Positions 26,967-32,337 of a stretch of DNA of 60,104 bases are shown piece by piece; the first letter of the stretch is position 1, and each line of letters starts with the position of its first letter. The translations under genes were made by a program, and so were the position numbers. The stretch covers positions 1 through 60,104 of the forward strand of contig BEIQ01000007.1 of assembly GCA_002898275.1 (NCBI GenBank). Direction: 5' to 3'. The notes beneath the pieces are model-generated. The model did no database searches and was not told the origin of the DNA. It saw only the letters and a list, made by a program, of their open reading frames with translations. The stretch is from a bacterium HR40. GTDB taxonomy: Bacteria > Pseudomonadota > Alphaproteobacteria > Geminicoccales > Geminicoccaceae.

Positions 26967-28958
26967 TCACGCCGCTCGACGATACGCAGCCAGCACGATC
27001 TCGACGAGATCGGCCAGGATCTCGTGGATCCGAAAGTCCTTGGGCGTATAGACGCGGACCACGCCCGCTGCCCGCAGCCGTTCGGCATCGGCTGGCGGAA
27101 CGATACCGCCGACCACCACCGGCACCTCGCCGATGCCGAGGCGGCGCATGCGGGCCAGGACCTCCTCGACGAGCGGCAGATGGGAGCCCGAGAGGATCGA
27201 GAGCCCGACGAGATGCACCCCTTCCTCGAGGGCGCTGTTGGCGATGCGCGCCGGCGACAGGCGGATGCCTTCGTAGACCACCTCCATCCCGGCATCGCGC
27301 GCTGCCACCGCGATCTGCTCGGCTCCGTTGGAATGGCCATCGAGCCCTGGCTTGCCCACCAGGATCTTCGGTCGGCGCCCGAGCAGGCGGCTCGCCTCTT
27401 CCACCCGCGCCCGCACCGGCGCCAGAAGATCGGCGGCTGGCGAATGCACCGCTCCCACCCCGGTCGGTGCCCGATACTCGCCGAACACCTCGCGCAGCAC
27501 CTGCGCCCATTCGCCTGTCGTCACCCCGGCTTCGGCGCAGAGGATCGAAGGTGGCACGATGTTGCGCCCCTCCTGCGCCGCCTCCCGCAGGACCGCCAGA
27601 GCCCGGGCCACCGCCTGCGGGTCGCGGCTGCGACGATGCGCTTCGAGACGGGCAATCTGCTCGGCTTCGGCAGCGGGATCGACAGCGAGGAAAGCGGCGC
27701 CGCCGTCCGCGAGAAGGGGCGAGGGTTCGCTTTCCGTATAACAGTTCACACCCACCACCTTGATCCGTCCGGCAGCGATGTCGGCAACACGTTTCGCGTT
27801 AGCCGCAACCAGTTGGCTTTTGATGTAGCCGTTTTCCACCGCCGCCAACACTCCACCCATCTCCTCGACTCGCCGCATCTCCTCCCGCGCTTCGGCGACG
27901 AGCTCGGCGACCCGTCGCTCGATCACCGGCGAGCCGTCGAAGATGTCGTCGTACTCGAGGAGATCGGTTTCGAAGGCGAGGATCTGCTGGGCCCGCAGCG
28001 ACCATTGTTGGTCCCACGGGCGCGGCAGGCCGAGAGCCTCGTTCCAGGCCGGCAACTGCACCGCCCGGGCACGGGCGTTCTTCGACAAAGTGACCGCCAG
28101 CATCTCGAGCAGGATGCGGTAGACGTTGTTCTCCGGCTGCTGTTCGGTGAGCCCGAGGGAGTTCACCTGCACCCCATAGCGGAAGCGGCGCAGCTCGGCA
28201 TCGGCAATGCCGTAACGCTCGCGGCCGATCTCGTCCCACAGGCGCACGAAGGCGCGCATCTTGCAGAGCTCGGTGATGAAACGGATGCCGGCATTGACGA
28301 AGAAGCTGATACGGCCGAAGACCCGCGGGAATTCCTCGGTGCTCACCACCCCGCTCTCGCGGATGGTGTCGAGCAAGGCGATGGCGGTGGCGAGTGCATA
28401 GGCGAGTTCCTGGACCGGCGTCGCTCCCGCCTCCTGGAGATGGTAGCTGCAGATGTTCGTCGGGTTCCATCTCGGCATTTCCCGCGCCGTATAGGCGACG
28501 ATATCGGTGGCGAGCTTCATCGAAGGGCGCGGCGGGAAGATGTAGGTGCCGCGGGACAGGTACTCCTTGACGATATCGTTCTGGACGGTGCCCTGCAGCT
28601 CGCGCGGATCCGCCCCTTGGCGCTTGGCCACCGCGATATAGAGGGCGAGGATCCAGGCGGCGGTGGCATTGATGGTCATCGAAGTGTTCATGCGCGCCAG
28701 CGGAATACCGGCGAACAGCGTCTCCATGTCGCGGATCGAGCTCACCGGCACCCCGACCTTGCCGACTTCGCCGCGGGCGAGTGGATGGTCGGCGTCATAG
28801 CCGGTCTGGGTCGGCAGGTCGAAGGCGATCGACAGACCGGTCTGGCCGCGCGCCAGATTGGCCCGGAACAGGGCGTTGCTCGCCGCGGCCGAGCTGTGTC
28901 CGGCATAGGTGCGAAAGAGCCAGGGCCGATCGCGGTGTGGCGCAGCTTCGGAGGCCAT
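26967..28958 (-). CDS. ecm: ethylmalonyl-CoA mutase
   Basis: A 663-residue adenosylcobalamin enzyme that rearranges (2R)-ethylmalonyl-CoA to (2S)-methylsuccinyl-CoA. The N-terminal catalytic barrel begins PWLFRTYAGHSSAAASNALFRANLARGQTG and includes TQTGYDADHPLARGEVGKVGV and NNVYRILLEMLAV. The C-terminal B12 domain has KPGLDGHSNGAEQIAVAARDAGMEV, where the His of DGHSNG (about residue 539) is the lower cobalt ligand, and GLSILSGSHLPLV. The GLDGHSNG form and the neighbouring ccr and mcd genes point to Ecm rather than methylmalonyl-CoA mutase. ATG at 28958 follows GAGAGGTG. It is divergent from ccr over a 127-bp control region. Confidence 0.93.
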   Translation of the reverse strand: MASEAAPHRDRPWLFRTYAGHSSAAASNALFRANLARGQTGLSIAFDLPTQTGYDADHPLARGEVGKVGVPVSSIRDMETLFAGIPLARMNTSMTINATAAWILALYIAVAKRQGADPRELQGTVQNDIVKEYLSRGTYIFPPRPSMKLATDIVAYTAREMPRWNPTNICSYHLQEAGATPVQELAYALATAIALLDTIRESGVVSTEEFPRVFGRISFFVNAGIRFITELCKMRAFVRLWDEIGRERYGIADAELRRFRYGVQVNSLGLTEQQPENNVYRILLEMLAVTLSKNARARAVQLPAWNEALGLPRPWDQQWSLRAQQILAFETDLLEYDDIFDGSPVIERRVAELVAEAREEMRRVEEMGGVLAAVENGYIKSQLVAANAKRVADIAAGRIKVVGVNCYTESEPSPLLADGGAAFLAVDPAAEAEQIARLEAHRRSRDPQAVARALAVLREAAQEGRNIVPPSILCAEAGVTTGEWAQVLREVFGEYRAPTGVGAVHSPAADLLAPVRARVEEASRLLGRRPKILVGKPGLDGHSNGAEQIAVAARDAGMEVVYEGIRLSPARIANSALEEGVHLVGLSILSGSHLPLVEEVLARMRRLGIGEVPVVVGGIVPPADAERLRAAGVVRVYTPKDFRIHEILADLVEIVLAAYRRAA

Positions 28959-28962
28959 GGGC

Positions 28963-29042
28963 AACACCTCTCGGTGTTTTCGCATAGGCGATAACAACAC
29001 TGCTGCGCCGCGTCAAATGAATTTTCGTGTTGACGTCCAACA
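28963..29042. promoter_or_regulatory. ecm/ccr divergent control region with inverted repeats
   Basis: Three AACA-type elements occur here: AACAC-CTCTCG-GTGTT (28963-28978), the direct form AACAACACT (about 28994-29002) and the perfect TGTTG-ACGTC-CAACA (29028-29042). The last overlaps a TTGACG hexamer at 29030-29035 that could be the ccr -35 box. The pattern suggests one regulator binding several sites to control both genes. The HTH domain encoded at the start of the ccr frame is the obvious candidate; that is inference. Confidence 0.5.
28988..29016 (-). promoter_or_regulatory. ecm promoter
   Basis: On the minus strand TTGACG (29011-29016) and TATCGC (28988-28993) are separated by exactly 17 bases, giving a transcript start near 28981 and a short leader of about 23 bases to the ecm ATG at 28958. 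The AACAC...GTGTT repeat lies in that leader, where a repressor would block initiation or early elongation. Confidence 0.5.
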
Positions 29043-29085
29043 TCGCCCGTGTCAGGGTCTCGGCAGCAGGACGGGAGACGGAGCG

Positions 29086-30669
29086 ATGTCGCGTCAGAAT
29101 GTCGAACGGATCATCCGCAAGTTCGGCTCGCAGCAGCGTGTGGCCGAGCTGCTCGGCATCTGGCAGACCGCGGTCTCGGGCTGGATCCGCCGGGGCGTCA
29201 TCCCGACGAGACGGCAGGCCGAGCTCCTCGCCATCGCCCGCCGCGAGGGTATCGACCTGCGTCCGGAGGACTTTTTCGAGGACGGTCTCGCGGTGACCGG
29301 CACCGATGCCGGAGTCGCTGCTGTCTCCCGTACCCCCGTCGCCTCGAACTCGGAAGGCAGCAGGACCATGCCCGCAACCGCCGACAACATCGTCTCGTTC
29401 CCCCAGGGCCGCGCCCCCGCCGTCGTCCGTGCCACCAAGGACCTCTACGAGGTCGGCGAGATTCCGCCGCTCGGCCATGTGCCGAAGAACATGTACGCCT
29501 GGGTGATCCGTCAGGAGCGACACGGCGACCCGATCCATGCCATGCAGCAAGAGGTGGTGCCGACCTGGGAGATCGGCGATGACGAGTGTCTCGTCATGGT
29601 CATGGCGGCCGGGGTCAACTACAACGGTGTGTGGGCGGCGCTCGGCAAGCCGATTTCGCCGATCGACGTGCACAAGCAGCCCTATCACATCGCCGGTTCG
29701 GACGCCTCCGGCATTGTCTGGGCCGTCGGATCCAAGGTGCGGCGCTGGAAGGTCGGCGACGAGGTGGTGATCCACTGCAACCAGGACGACGGCGACGACG
29801 AGGAATGCAATGGCGGCGACCCGATGTTCTCGCCGTCGCAGCGGATCTGGGGTTACGAGACGGGAGACGGCAGTTTCGCCCAGTTCTGTCGGGTGCAATC
29901 GCGCCAGCTGATGCCCCGCCCCAAGCACCTGACCTGGGAGGAATCGGGCTGCTACGTGCTGACTCTCGCCACCGCCTATCGCATGCTCTTCGGCCATCCG
30001 CCGCACACCCTCAAACCGGGGGACAATGTGCTCGTCTGGGGTGGAGCGGGCGGCCTCGGCTCGATGGCCATCCAGCTCATCGCGGCCAGCGGCGCCAACG
30101 CCATCGCCGTCATCTCGGACGAGGAGAAGCGCGATTTCGTGCTCTCGCTCGGCGCCAAGGGAGCGATCAACCGCAAGCAATTCCATTGCTGGGGGGAGAT
30201 GCCCGATCCCGCCGACCGCGAGGCCTATGGCGCATGGATCAAGGAAGTGCGTCGGTTCGGCAAGGCGATCTGGGACATCACGGGCAAGCAGGATGTCGAC
30301 ATCGTGTTCGAGCATCCCGGGGCCGCGACCTTCCCGGTCTCGGTCTTCGTCGTCAAGCGCGGCGGCATGGTCGTCATCTGTGCCGGCACTACCGGCTACA
30401 AGCTCACCCTCGACGCGCGCTATCTGTGGATGCGCCAGAAGCGGGTGCAGGGCAGCCACTTCGCCCATCTCAAGCAGGCGATGGCGGCCAACCGATTCGT
30501 CCTCAACCGTCAGGTCGATCCCTGCATGAGCGAGGTGTTCGCCTGGCACGACATCCCGCGGGCACACCAGAAGATGATGAAGAACGAGCACCGGCCCGGC
30601 AACATGGCGGTGCTGGTGCAGGCGAAGCGGCCTGGCATGCGCACCTTCGAAGAAGCTCTGGAGGCCTGA
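29086..30669 (+). CDS. ccr: crotonyl-CoA carboxylase/reductase with in-frame N-terminal helix-turn-helix domain
   Basis: One open frame of 527 codons. Residues about 5-66 form a Cro/YdaS-like HTH: FGSQQRVAELLGIWQTAVSGW gives helices 2 and 3, and GIDLRPEDFF ends the domain. A linker of about 28 residues follows. From Met95 onward (433 residues) there is a complete crotonyl-CoA carboxylase/reductase with DLYEVGEIPPLGHVPKNMYAW, HCNQDDGDDEECNGGDPMFSPSQRIWGYE, VWGGAGGLGSMAIQL and RVQGSHFAHLKQAM. Ccr reductively carboxylates crotonyl-CoA with NADPH and CO2 to ethylmalonyl-CoA. ATG at 29368 has GGAAGG and AGGA upstream, so a shorter enzyme could also be made. mcd follows after three bases. Whether the long form is produced is not shown by sequence alone. 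Confidence 0.85.
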   Translation: MSRQNVERIIRKFGSQQRVAELLGIWQTAVSGWIRRGVIPTRRQAELLAIARREGIDLRPEDFFEDGLAVTGTDAGVAAVSRTPVASNSEGSRTMPATADNIVSFPQGRAPAVVRATKDLYEVGEIPPLGHVPKNMYAWVIRQERHGDPIHAMQQEVVPTWEIGDDECLVMVMAAGVNYNGVWAALGKPISPIDVHKQPYHIAGSDASGIVWAVGSKVRRWKVGDEVVIHCNQDDGDDEECNGGDPMFSPSQRIWGYETGDGSFAQFCRVQSRQLMPRPKHLTWEESGCYVLTLATAYRMLFGHPPHTLKPGDNVLVWGGAGGLGSMAIQLIAASGANAIAVISDEEKRDFVLSLGAKGAINRKQFHCWGEMPDPADREAYGAWIKEVRRFGKAIWDITGKQDVDIVFEHPGAATFPVSVFVVKRGGMVVICAGTTGYKLTLDARYLWMRQKRVQGSHFAHLKQAMAANRFVLNRQVDPCMSEVFAWHDIPRAHQKMMKNEHRPGNMAVLVQAKRPGMRTFEEALEA

Positions 30670-30672
30670 GCC

Positions 30673-32337
30673 GTGATCACCGGGACGGCCGATCGCGTTC
30701 GCCCCGAGGAGCTGCTCCGTGCCGCCGACCGCGCGCTCGAGCGCGTGCACACCATGGTCGAGCGTGCTCGGGATCGTCTCGCCCGGCGATTCGCCCCGGG
30801 GGGCGACTTCGATGTCGCGCTGTTCGAGCGCGAGCAGACGGCAGCCCACGGGCTCGCCTGGTACGAGGTGTACCGCCGGGCGCTCGAGCAACTGCAGGCC
30901 TGGGCCCGCAGGCTCGCGGACAGCGGCCGCTTCGGCGAGCGCGAGCGGCTGATCTTGGAGCTCGGCTTCGGAGAATACCTCGCCCGCATGGCGGGTGGCG
31001 TGCCCATGAGCCAGGGGGAATACGTCCGTCCCTGGCAAATCGGCCTCGATGCTACCGATCTCGACACCTTCCGGTCCTCCGAGGTGTGCGGCTTCTGTCG
31101 CCTCGCGGCCGATCCCGCCAGGGTGCTGCGCCTCGCCCAGCTGATCGAGGAGGGAGAGTTCGGCGATCCGGGCTATGCCCGCGAGGAGCTCGAGCTGGTG
31201 CGCGAGCAGTTCCGGCGGTTCGCCGACGAGCGCATCCTGCCGTTCGCCCATCGCTGGCACCTCGAAGACCGGCTCGTGCCGCTCGAGCTCATCGGCGAGC
31301 TCGCCAAGCTCGGAGTCTTCGGCCTCACCGTGCCGGAGCGCTACGGCGGGCTCGGCATGGGCAAGGAAGCGATGTGCGTGGTCACGGAGGAGCTGTCGCG
31401 CGGCTGGATCGGCGTCGGCTCCCTGTCGACCCGCTCGGAGATCGCCGCCGAGCTCGTCCGCCTGGGCGGCACCGAAGAGCAGCGCCAGCGCTTCTTGCCC
31501 AGGATCGCCTCGGGCGAGAGCATCCCCACGGCGGTCTTCACCGAGCCCGACACCGGGTCCGATCTCGCTTCGCTGCGGACGCGTGCGGTGCTTCGCGACG
31601 GTTTCTACGAGGTCTATGGGTCCAAGACCTGGATCACCCACGCGGCCCGCGCCGATCTCATGACCATCCTCGTGCGCACCGACACGAGCGAGCCAGGCTA
31701 CCGCGGTCTGTCGATGCTGATCGCCGAAAAGCCTCGCGGCCGCGAGGATGACCCCTTCCCCGTGGCGGGTCTGAGCGGTTCCGAGATCCCGGTGCTGGGC
31801 TACCGCGGCATGAAGGAATACGCCCTCTCCTTCGACGGCTTCCGCGTGCCGGCGGCCAATCTCCTAGGCGGCGTGCCCGGTCGCGGCTTCAAGCAGCTCA
31901 TGGCGACCTTCGAGAGCGCGCGCATCCAGACCGCGGCGCGGGCCATCGGGGTGGCCCGCAGCGCTCTCGAGCTCGCCCTCTCCTATGCGCGGGAACGTCG
32001 ACAGTTCGGCAAGCCCATCTTCGCCTTCCCGCGGGTGCACGGCAAGCTGGCAGGAATGGCGGTGGAGATCATGCTCGCTCGCCAACTCACTCTCTTCGCC
32101 GCGCGCGAGAAGGACGCCGACCGCCGCTGCGACCTCGAGGCCGGGCTCGCCAAGCTGCTCGCCGCTCAGGTGGCGTGGTCGGCAGCCGACAATGCCGTGC
32201 AGATCCATGGCGGCAACGGCTACGCCCTCGAGTTCCCGATCAGCCGCGTGCTGTGCGACGCGCGCATCCTCAACATTTTCGAGGGCTCGGCGGAGATCCA
32301 GGCGCAGGTGATCGCCCGACGACTGTTCACCGCTTGA
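30673..32337 (+). CDS. mcd: (2S)-methylsuccinyl-CoA dehydrogenase
   Basis: A 554-residue FAD enzyme of the acyl-CoA dehydrogenase family that oxidises methylsuccinyl-CoA to mesaconyl-CoA. It carries the extra N-terminal domain of about 150 residues that marks Mcd (ALERVHTMVERARDRL ... FGEYLARMAGGVPMSQGEY), then the dehydrogenase core with FGLTVPERYGGLGMGKEAM, AVFTEPDTGSDLASLRTRA, SYARERRQFGKPIFAFPRV, QIHGGNGYALEFPISRVLCDARIL and FEGSAEIQ. GTG at 30673 follows the ccr stop by three bases, so the two form an operon. The upstream Ccr and divergent Ecm supply the two preceding steps. Confidence 0.93.
   Translation: MITGTADRVRPEELLRAADRALERVHTMVERARDRLARRFAPGGDFDVALFEREQTAAHGLAWYEVYRRALEQLQAWARRLADSGRFGERERLILELGFGEYLARMAGGVPMSQGEYVRPWQIGLDATDLDTFRSSEVCGFCRLAADPARVLRLAQLIEEGEFGDPGYAREELELVREQFRRFADERILPFAHRWHLEDRLVPLELIGELAKLGVFGLTVPERYGGLGMGKEAMCVVTEELSRGWIGVGSLSTRSEIAAELVRLGGTEEQRQRFLPRIASGESIPTAVFTEPDTGSDLASLRTRAVLRDGFYEVYGSKTWITHAARADLMTILVRTDTSEPGYRGLSMLIAEKPRGREDDPFPVAGLSGSEIPVLGYRGMKEYALSFDGFRVPAANLLGGVPGRGFKQLMATFESARIQTAARAIGVARSALELALSYARERRQFGKPIFAFPRVHGKLAGMAVEIMLARQLTLFAAREKDADRRCDLEAGLAKLLAAQVAWSAADNAVQIHGGNGYALEFPISRVLCDARILNIFEGSAEIQAQVIARRLFTA

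Follow-up and report, generated by a model that had tools for sequence, protein, structure and literature searches.

We analysed a 60,104-bp stretch of the genome of bacterium HR40 (Alphaproteobacteria, Geminicoccaceae; assembly GCA_002898275.1, contig BEIQ01000007.1; hereafter the window), in which two genes of the ethylmalonyl-CoA pathway, ecm (ethylmalonyl-CoA mutase-like) and ccr (crotonyl-CoA carboxylase/reductase, Ccr), diverge from a shared 127-bp region. The Ccr encoded here carries an N-terminal Cro-like helix-turn-helix (HTH) head, and the region between the two genes is crowded with the five-letter word AACAC, an array that accompanies the fused protein (HTH-Ccr) in the loci sampled and shows no excess at the corresponding loci of alphaproteobacteria with a head-less Ccr. 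Judging from sequence comparison, Ccr itself is predicted to be the most likely regulator of the ecm-ccr region, and we give a probability of about 60% to the reading that HTH-Ccr binds and controls the AACAC array, whichever the sign of that control. The initial annotation had proposed one dimeric regulator acting in both directions through inverted AACA repeats; a common control region for both directions agrees with our results, whereas a single dimer on a palindrome of fixed spacing does not. A regulatory role of Ccr was implied, though not spelled out, in that annotation.

The ecm-ccr region of the window contains four AACAC/GTGTT sites (28963 on the plus strand, 28974 on the minus, 28996 on the plus and 29027 on the minus) against 0.10 expected, plus a near match, CAACA, at 29038. 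The background in the organism's own genome is 0.81 such sites per kb (400 kb), and no other 127-bp stretch with four sites was found in 400 kb of that genome or in the window (460 kb), while seven site starts in the 400 kb open a 127-bp stretch with three. To compare relatives, we took the 28 loci found in the family, from which four at contig ends (L022, L023, L024, L026) and one with N (L028) were dropped. Across the remaining 23, AACAC was the top five-mer (71 occurrences vs 10.5 expected), the leading six-mers included TAACAC, AACACC, AACACT and CAACAC, and the recurring unit can be written as a directional (Y)AACAC(Y), roughly Y-AACAC-Y-T. The genes ecm and ccr are divergent neighbours in 22 of these 23 loci and in 24 of 28 HTH-less loci fetched from the 48 genomes of the class with a Ccr match. 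After leaving out the family locus with no ecm beside ccr (L021) and the four HTH-less loci with no divergent ecm (L077, L086, L087, L099), YAACACY was present in 20/22 Geminicoccaceae HTH loci (44 sites vs 1.85 expected) and in 2/24 HTH-less alphaproteobacterial loci with the same divergent order (2 sites vs 2.0 expected), expected counts being obtained by first-order Markov resampling per region. AACAC density was 20.5 per kb in the HTH loci and 1.35 per kb in the HTH-less loci (Mann-Whitney P = 1.6e-9, relatedness not corrected); three of the ten AACAC in the HTH-less count come from L095, where ecm and ccr are separated by a 1.2-kb stretch that contains another gene, and some bases of the L015 region may be coding. 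The expectation of the initial annotation that the repeats would be kept only with the fusion is borne out in these loci, and whole-genome pair searches, together with the density over 460 kb, showed that they do not reach the same frequency in the rest of the genome.

HTH-Ccr is encoded by a single open frame (29086-30669, plus strand), with the Cro-like HTH domain at its N-terminus (residues 1-64, 29086..29277). The Pfam model P22_Cro scored 30.7 bits on the full-length protein and 34.4 bits on the head alone (curated cut-off 30.2) and was matched at E 0.01 or better by 18/18 members, and the PDB profile matches of the head were the Cro proteins of Xfaso 1, N15 and P22 (3bd1 at E = 5e-7). 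A structural model of the head (predicted local distance difference test, pLDDT, 94-97 over residues 1-60) retrieved 3bd1, 2hin, 5w8y and 6on0 as the top Foldseek matches, with probabilities of 0.99-1.00 and E-values of only 0.03-0.12; probabilities were high for the first eight matches and E-values modest, and the modelled head has a Cro-like helical fold. Among 21 proteins, mean pairwise identity was 0.83 in the head, 0.94 in its recognition region, 0.25 in the linker (residues 65-116, 29278..29433, also of low pLDDT) and 0.84 in the enzyme, and the head region LGIWQTAVSGW was near-invariant. Head and enzyme are thus conserved to about the same degree and the linker between them is not, a pattern that favours a functional DNA-binding domain. 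The enzyme part (29434..30669) scored 631.8 bits on the equivalog model TIGR01751 (cut-off 378.55), and its closest solved chain, 4gi2, aligned across the whole domain; the crotonyl-CoA carboxylase/reductase domain is apparently intact. A DNA-binding domain and an enzyme domain are combined in one chain, as in a trigger enzyme. In the full-length AlphaFold model (mean pLDDT 47.7), the linker and a large part of the enzyme were poorly predicted, and we therefore argue no tetramer geometry from it; we take Ccr to be a tetramer.

A separate stand-alone regulator, for example an ScfR-type or a TetR-type acyl-CoA regulator, might instead bind AACAC while the HTH of Ccr does something else. We consider this rather unlikely, since the sites go with the fusion and not with the sampled HTH-less loci, the lack of a second four-site stretch fits a regulator of a single locus, and selection constrains the HTH about as strongly as the enzyme.

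The fusion was confined to one family in our samples. Of 31 family genomes, 26 had a Ccr match and five had none; three of the 26 were cut by contig ends, and the head was present in all 23 with the Ccr N-terminus inside the contig. No alignable head was found in 48/48 non-family genomes of the class with a Ccr match, nor in 70/70 others of a phylum draw overlapping the class draw (lowest start residue 52, in a frame too short for a head), where a head that had diverged beyond alignment would have escaped notice in both draws. The match in genome G169 starts at residue 22 but contains stops, its frame being closed just before ccr. Two head patterns, scanned against named genomes, gave 22 loci, 19 of them with divergent ecm and ccr; of the others, L056 and L072 are truncated at contig ends and L070 (Arboricoccus pini) lacks an ecm next to ccr. 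The named relatives with the same head include Geminicoccaceae, the complete genome KatS3mg117 among them, and Arboricoccus pini; L072, a 3.3-kb contig labelled Rhodocyclaceae, may be misbinned. When the HTH was searched across the class, 17 genomes outside the family were matched (E 4e-12 to 5e-7), and the three frames read (L034, L040, L042) encode a different, apparently membrane-anchored alphaproteobacterial protein, unrelated to Ccr, with the HTH near its N-terminus, which is a possible source of the Ccr head. Among the open-licence papers listed, no title or abstract dealt with an HTH-fused Ccr, which is not proof of absence.

Both inverted repeats named in the initial annotation are present and rare. 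The first, AACACCTCTCGGTGTT at 28963-28978 (AACACC-N4-GGTGTT in the ecm leader, half-sites at 28963 on the plus and 28974 on the minus strand), had one match in 60 kb and none in 100 shuffles; the second, TGTTGACGTCCAACA at 29028-29042, had one match, with one shuffle in 100 containing it, and overlaps a TTGACG on the ccr side (29030-29035) as had been described. In the whole own genome, TGTTG-N2-8-CAACA occurred at 10 places vs 4 for the reversed control, with one other place at N5. The palindrome was rejected as the conserved unit, as the spacing and orientation of AACAC arms differ between loci. The left half of the first repeat also occurs in several other genera, its right half (28974-28978) is missing from the corresponding position in L002, L003 and L007 (genus g10), and the arm spacing of the second repeat varies; the constant arm spacing of a palindromic operator for a simple dimer was not found across relatives. 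The missing arm also bears on an RNA reading of the ecm leader, in which a hairpin would hide the ribosome site: AACACC-GAGA-GGUGUU forms a 6-bp stem that covers the likely Shine-Dalgarno sequence, but its folding z-score is only -1.75, 13/200 shuffles fold as well, and the second arm is not kept in the same g10 relatives. We rejected this hairpin as very improbable. As a separate observation, the ecm-ccr region of L008 (G008:C334) contains a perfect 9-bp inverted repeat, TGTTATCGC-CGCT-GCGATAACA.

What recurs between half-sites is helical phase. Same-strand spacings cluster at multiples of 10.5-10.75 bp: in a test chosen after the spacings had been seen, and applied to the same data, 29 genus-distinct adjacent distances gave a cosine of 0.38 at 10.5 bp (P = 0.00025 by jitter; vector length P = 0.0038), 17 merged distances gave P = 0.0006 to 0.001 for phasing, and the 12 distances limited to 70 bp gave P of about 0.01, with opposite-strand pairs being weaker (vector P = 0.076, cosine P = 0.01). 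An arrangement of half-sites that mostly share one orientation and keep helical phase over variable distances suits several tethered heads on an oligomeric enzyme better than a single dimer, since same-face half-sites at variable distance are what such heads would use.

The AACAC words sit on or beside the core elements of both genes, namely the ecm Shine-Dalgarno sequence, the ecm -10 side and the ccr -35. In the window, the first repeat overlaps the likely ecm Shine-Dalgarno sequence, the plus-strand half-site at 28996-29000 lies inside the spacer of the putative ecm promoter and abuts its -10, and GTGTTGACGTCCAACA (29027..29042) joins a half-site GTGTT (29027-29031), overlapping the ccr -35 TTGACG (29030-29035), to the near-site CAACA (29038-29042). 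The ecm promoter of the initial annotation (28988..29016, minus strand) is there as letters, with TTGACG at 29016-29011, a 17-bp spacer and TATCGC at 28993-28988; on the other side, a putative ccr promoter reads TTGACG-N17-CAGGGT (29030..29058, plus strand), and a similar TTGAC-N17 pattern was read by eye in relatives. A sigma-70 consensus scan called neither promoter at its threshold. A back-to-back -35 core, GTCAA-N13-TTGAC, was present in 15/22 loci, and neither this arrangement nor TTGACG-N11-13-GTGTYA was seen in 400 kb of the own genome.

Such extensive overlap lends itself to another explanation, in which most AACAC words would be versions of core elements peculiar to this clade (the ecm -10 region GTGTTA, the ccr -35 GTGTTGAC and the Shine-Dalgarno sequence GGAGGTGTT), kept by shared ancestry, and would not be operators. 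With 20 bp next to each start masked, 57 sites remained in the 22 HTH loci vs 7.4 expected, and with promoter elements masked too, 26 remained vs 4.2 expected; with one locus per genus (11 loci), the counts were 33 vs 4.4 and 19 vs 2.8, respectively. Of the 26 remaining sites, 14 lie in the seven loci without a canonical core, where only the TTGAC/GTCAA neighbourhoods and the ends were masked and the -10 was left unmasked, and 8 lie in genus g16 (L015, L027); full masking (-10, -35 and Shine-Dalgarno) leaves no site in 10/22 loci, the window included. The 15 loci with the core, ends unmasked, nevertheless hold 20 sites outside promoter elements vs 4.1 expected, the HTH-less loci also have promoters and ribosome sites yet show no AACAC excess (8 sites vs 10.3 expected with ends masked), and the absence of TTGACG-N11-13-GTGTYA elsewhere and the phased spacing likewise speak against mere core elements. 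On balance, we hold this explanation to be improbable.

The same positions bear on the sign of control. Poor -10 boxes and the lack of a consensus promoter in the scan would suit HTH-Ccr as an activator that recruits polymerase to weak promoters, a variant of our reading whose odds are contained in the probability given above. Many sites cover the -10, the -35, the spacer or the leader, where a bound protein would usually block polymerase, and we regard activation as unlikely.

The HTH-less loci carry a different element. The box TGCRNYGCA was found in 22/24 of them (1.0 expected) vs 3/22 HTH loci (0.8 expected), and it forms the core of TGCRNYGCASMA, the PhaR consensus published for Bradyrhizobium in the passages available of PMC6201568; a related PhaR motif is described for Sinorhizobium in those of PMC12542648. 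The window has no such box but a one-mismatch form only, TGCGCCGCG (29004..29012), possibly a relic. One-mismatch forms (TGCRNYGCG or CGCRNYGCA) were present in 11/22 HTH loci (1.6 expected) and 9/24 HTH-less loci (2.3 expected), which suggests that some members of the HTH clade may still have a remnant of the box. As PhaR is still encoded in 30/31 family genomes, the box has been lost locally. From the box, we infer that PhaR (AniA) acts at HTH-less ecm-ccr loci, and the HTH-Ccr clade would differ from such control in having mostly lost the box while keeping the regulator; ccr and ecm are not named as PhaR targets in the passages of PMC6201568 and PMC12542648 available.

The reach of the array appears to be narrow. 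Thirty loci retrieved with a mesaconyl-CoA hydratase model (MC_hydratase), not every match of which need be the pathway enzyme, had at most one YAACACY each, and three of them (L105, L108, L123) had two plain AACAC/GTGTT within 80 bp. Besides ecm-ccr, pair searches of the own genome gave five direct and two inverted places. Of the six looked at, none was clearly intergenic, three (L141, L156, L163) having coding-like frames by composition and three (L133, L149, L177) lying inside long open frames that did not pass the composition test and are coding in our judgement; the seventh place is C6:63632. With no YAACACY pair at the MC_hydratase loci and no clearly intergenic pair place, the regulon may be one locus, in a search that was not exhaustive.

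We propose that HTH-Ccr would be an autogenous trigger enzyme, its Cro-like head tethered by a flexible linker and its operator array formed by the AACAC half-sites between ecm and ccr, which stand at variable but helically phased distances and cover the leader and -10 side of ecm as well as the -35 and spacer of ccr. The array would be bound jointly by several heads of a single Ccr oligomer, with the avidity that this provides, and both divergent promoters would most likely be repressed. Binding would presumably ease with the enzyme engaged on its substrates, crotonyl-CoA and reduced nicotinamide adenine dinucleotide phosphate (NADPH), and pathway flux would set the expression of ecm and ccr, the latter together with the gene that follows it. 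Head-based control may have taken the place of the PhaR-type box carried by most of the sampled head-less alphaproteobacterial loci. In its most specific form, a tetrameric Ccr with four tethered Cro heads would read the phased array, and this operator would have replaced the box of PhaR, a sensor of storage polymer, in one family, control passing from polymer status to enzyme occupancy; we offer this form tentatively, at somewhat less than even odds.

Several observations weigh against the proposal, the outcome of full masking and the late choice of the phasing test among them. All HTH loci belong to one clade, so that the co-occurrence of head and sites is a single phylogenetic event, and some of the HTH-less loci form near-identical pairs (L079/L080, L094/L096). 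Genus g12 has an array of just one or two sites, mostly next to promoter elements, with the head nearly unchanged. Arboricoccus pini (L021/L070) has an HTH-Ccr without an adjacent ecm; a single AACAC lies within 200 bp upstream of its ccr, and the one mutase found in it is 41% identical. Finally, the presence of a long variable linker is not enough to explain how a substrate signal would reach the head.

The surrounding genes fit the pathway. The ecm gene (26967..28958, minus strand, start codon ATG at 28958) combines MM_CoA_mutase and B12-binding domains; the family models indicate a mutase of this kind, and its identity as ecm also draws on gene order. An acyl-CoA dehydrogenase gene (30673..32337, plus strand) begins 3 bases past the ccr stop codon and, from gene context and length, probably encodes methylsuccinyl-CoA dehydrogenase (Mcd) of the same pathway and operon, a name given by no model. 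Near the head-enzyme junction of ccr, an in-frame internal ATG (29368-29370), preceded by AGGA, recurs in the closest relatives; it could be the fossil start codon of an unfused Ccr or the source of a head-less form. Elsewhere, in genome G020, which has no Ccr match, a mutase frame (L213, G020:C66:4248-6209) matches Ecm at 76% and begins like a methylmalonyl-CoA mutase large subunit, and it may be a true hybrid or come from a misjoined contig.

If the proposal is true, a CO2-fixing enzyme would act as transcription factor for its own pathway and would be a clean example of an enzyme that became a regulator, with the operator swap still visible: the same genes in the same order, the old box in relatives and a new word array in the head clade. 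It would also provide a concrete system for studying DNA recognition by heads tethered to an oligomeric enzyme and the sensing of flux in the ethylmalonyl-CoA pathway. In trigger enzymes of the PutA type, an enzyme with its own DNA-binding domain, a ribbon-helix-helix in PutA, represses its operon. HTH-Ccr resembles PutA as a catalytic enzyme that carries a DNA-binding domain and has its likely operators between divergent genes of its own pathway, and it differs in its Cro-like HTH, its reductive carboxylase, its long variable linker and its array of putative half-sites. The Cro proteins of P22, Xfaso 1 and N15 share the sequence and fold of the HTH; they are stand-alone phage or prophage proteins, whereas the head of HTH-Ccr is fused to a metabolic enzyme. 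BzdR, in which an HTH is joined by a linker to a shikimate-kinase-like domain, is likewise a DNA-binding domain attached to an enzyme fold, and the abstract of PMC3602430 describes loss of the ancestral enzyme activity as essential to BzdR, whereas the Ccr domain of HTH-Ccr looks intact.
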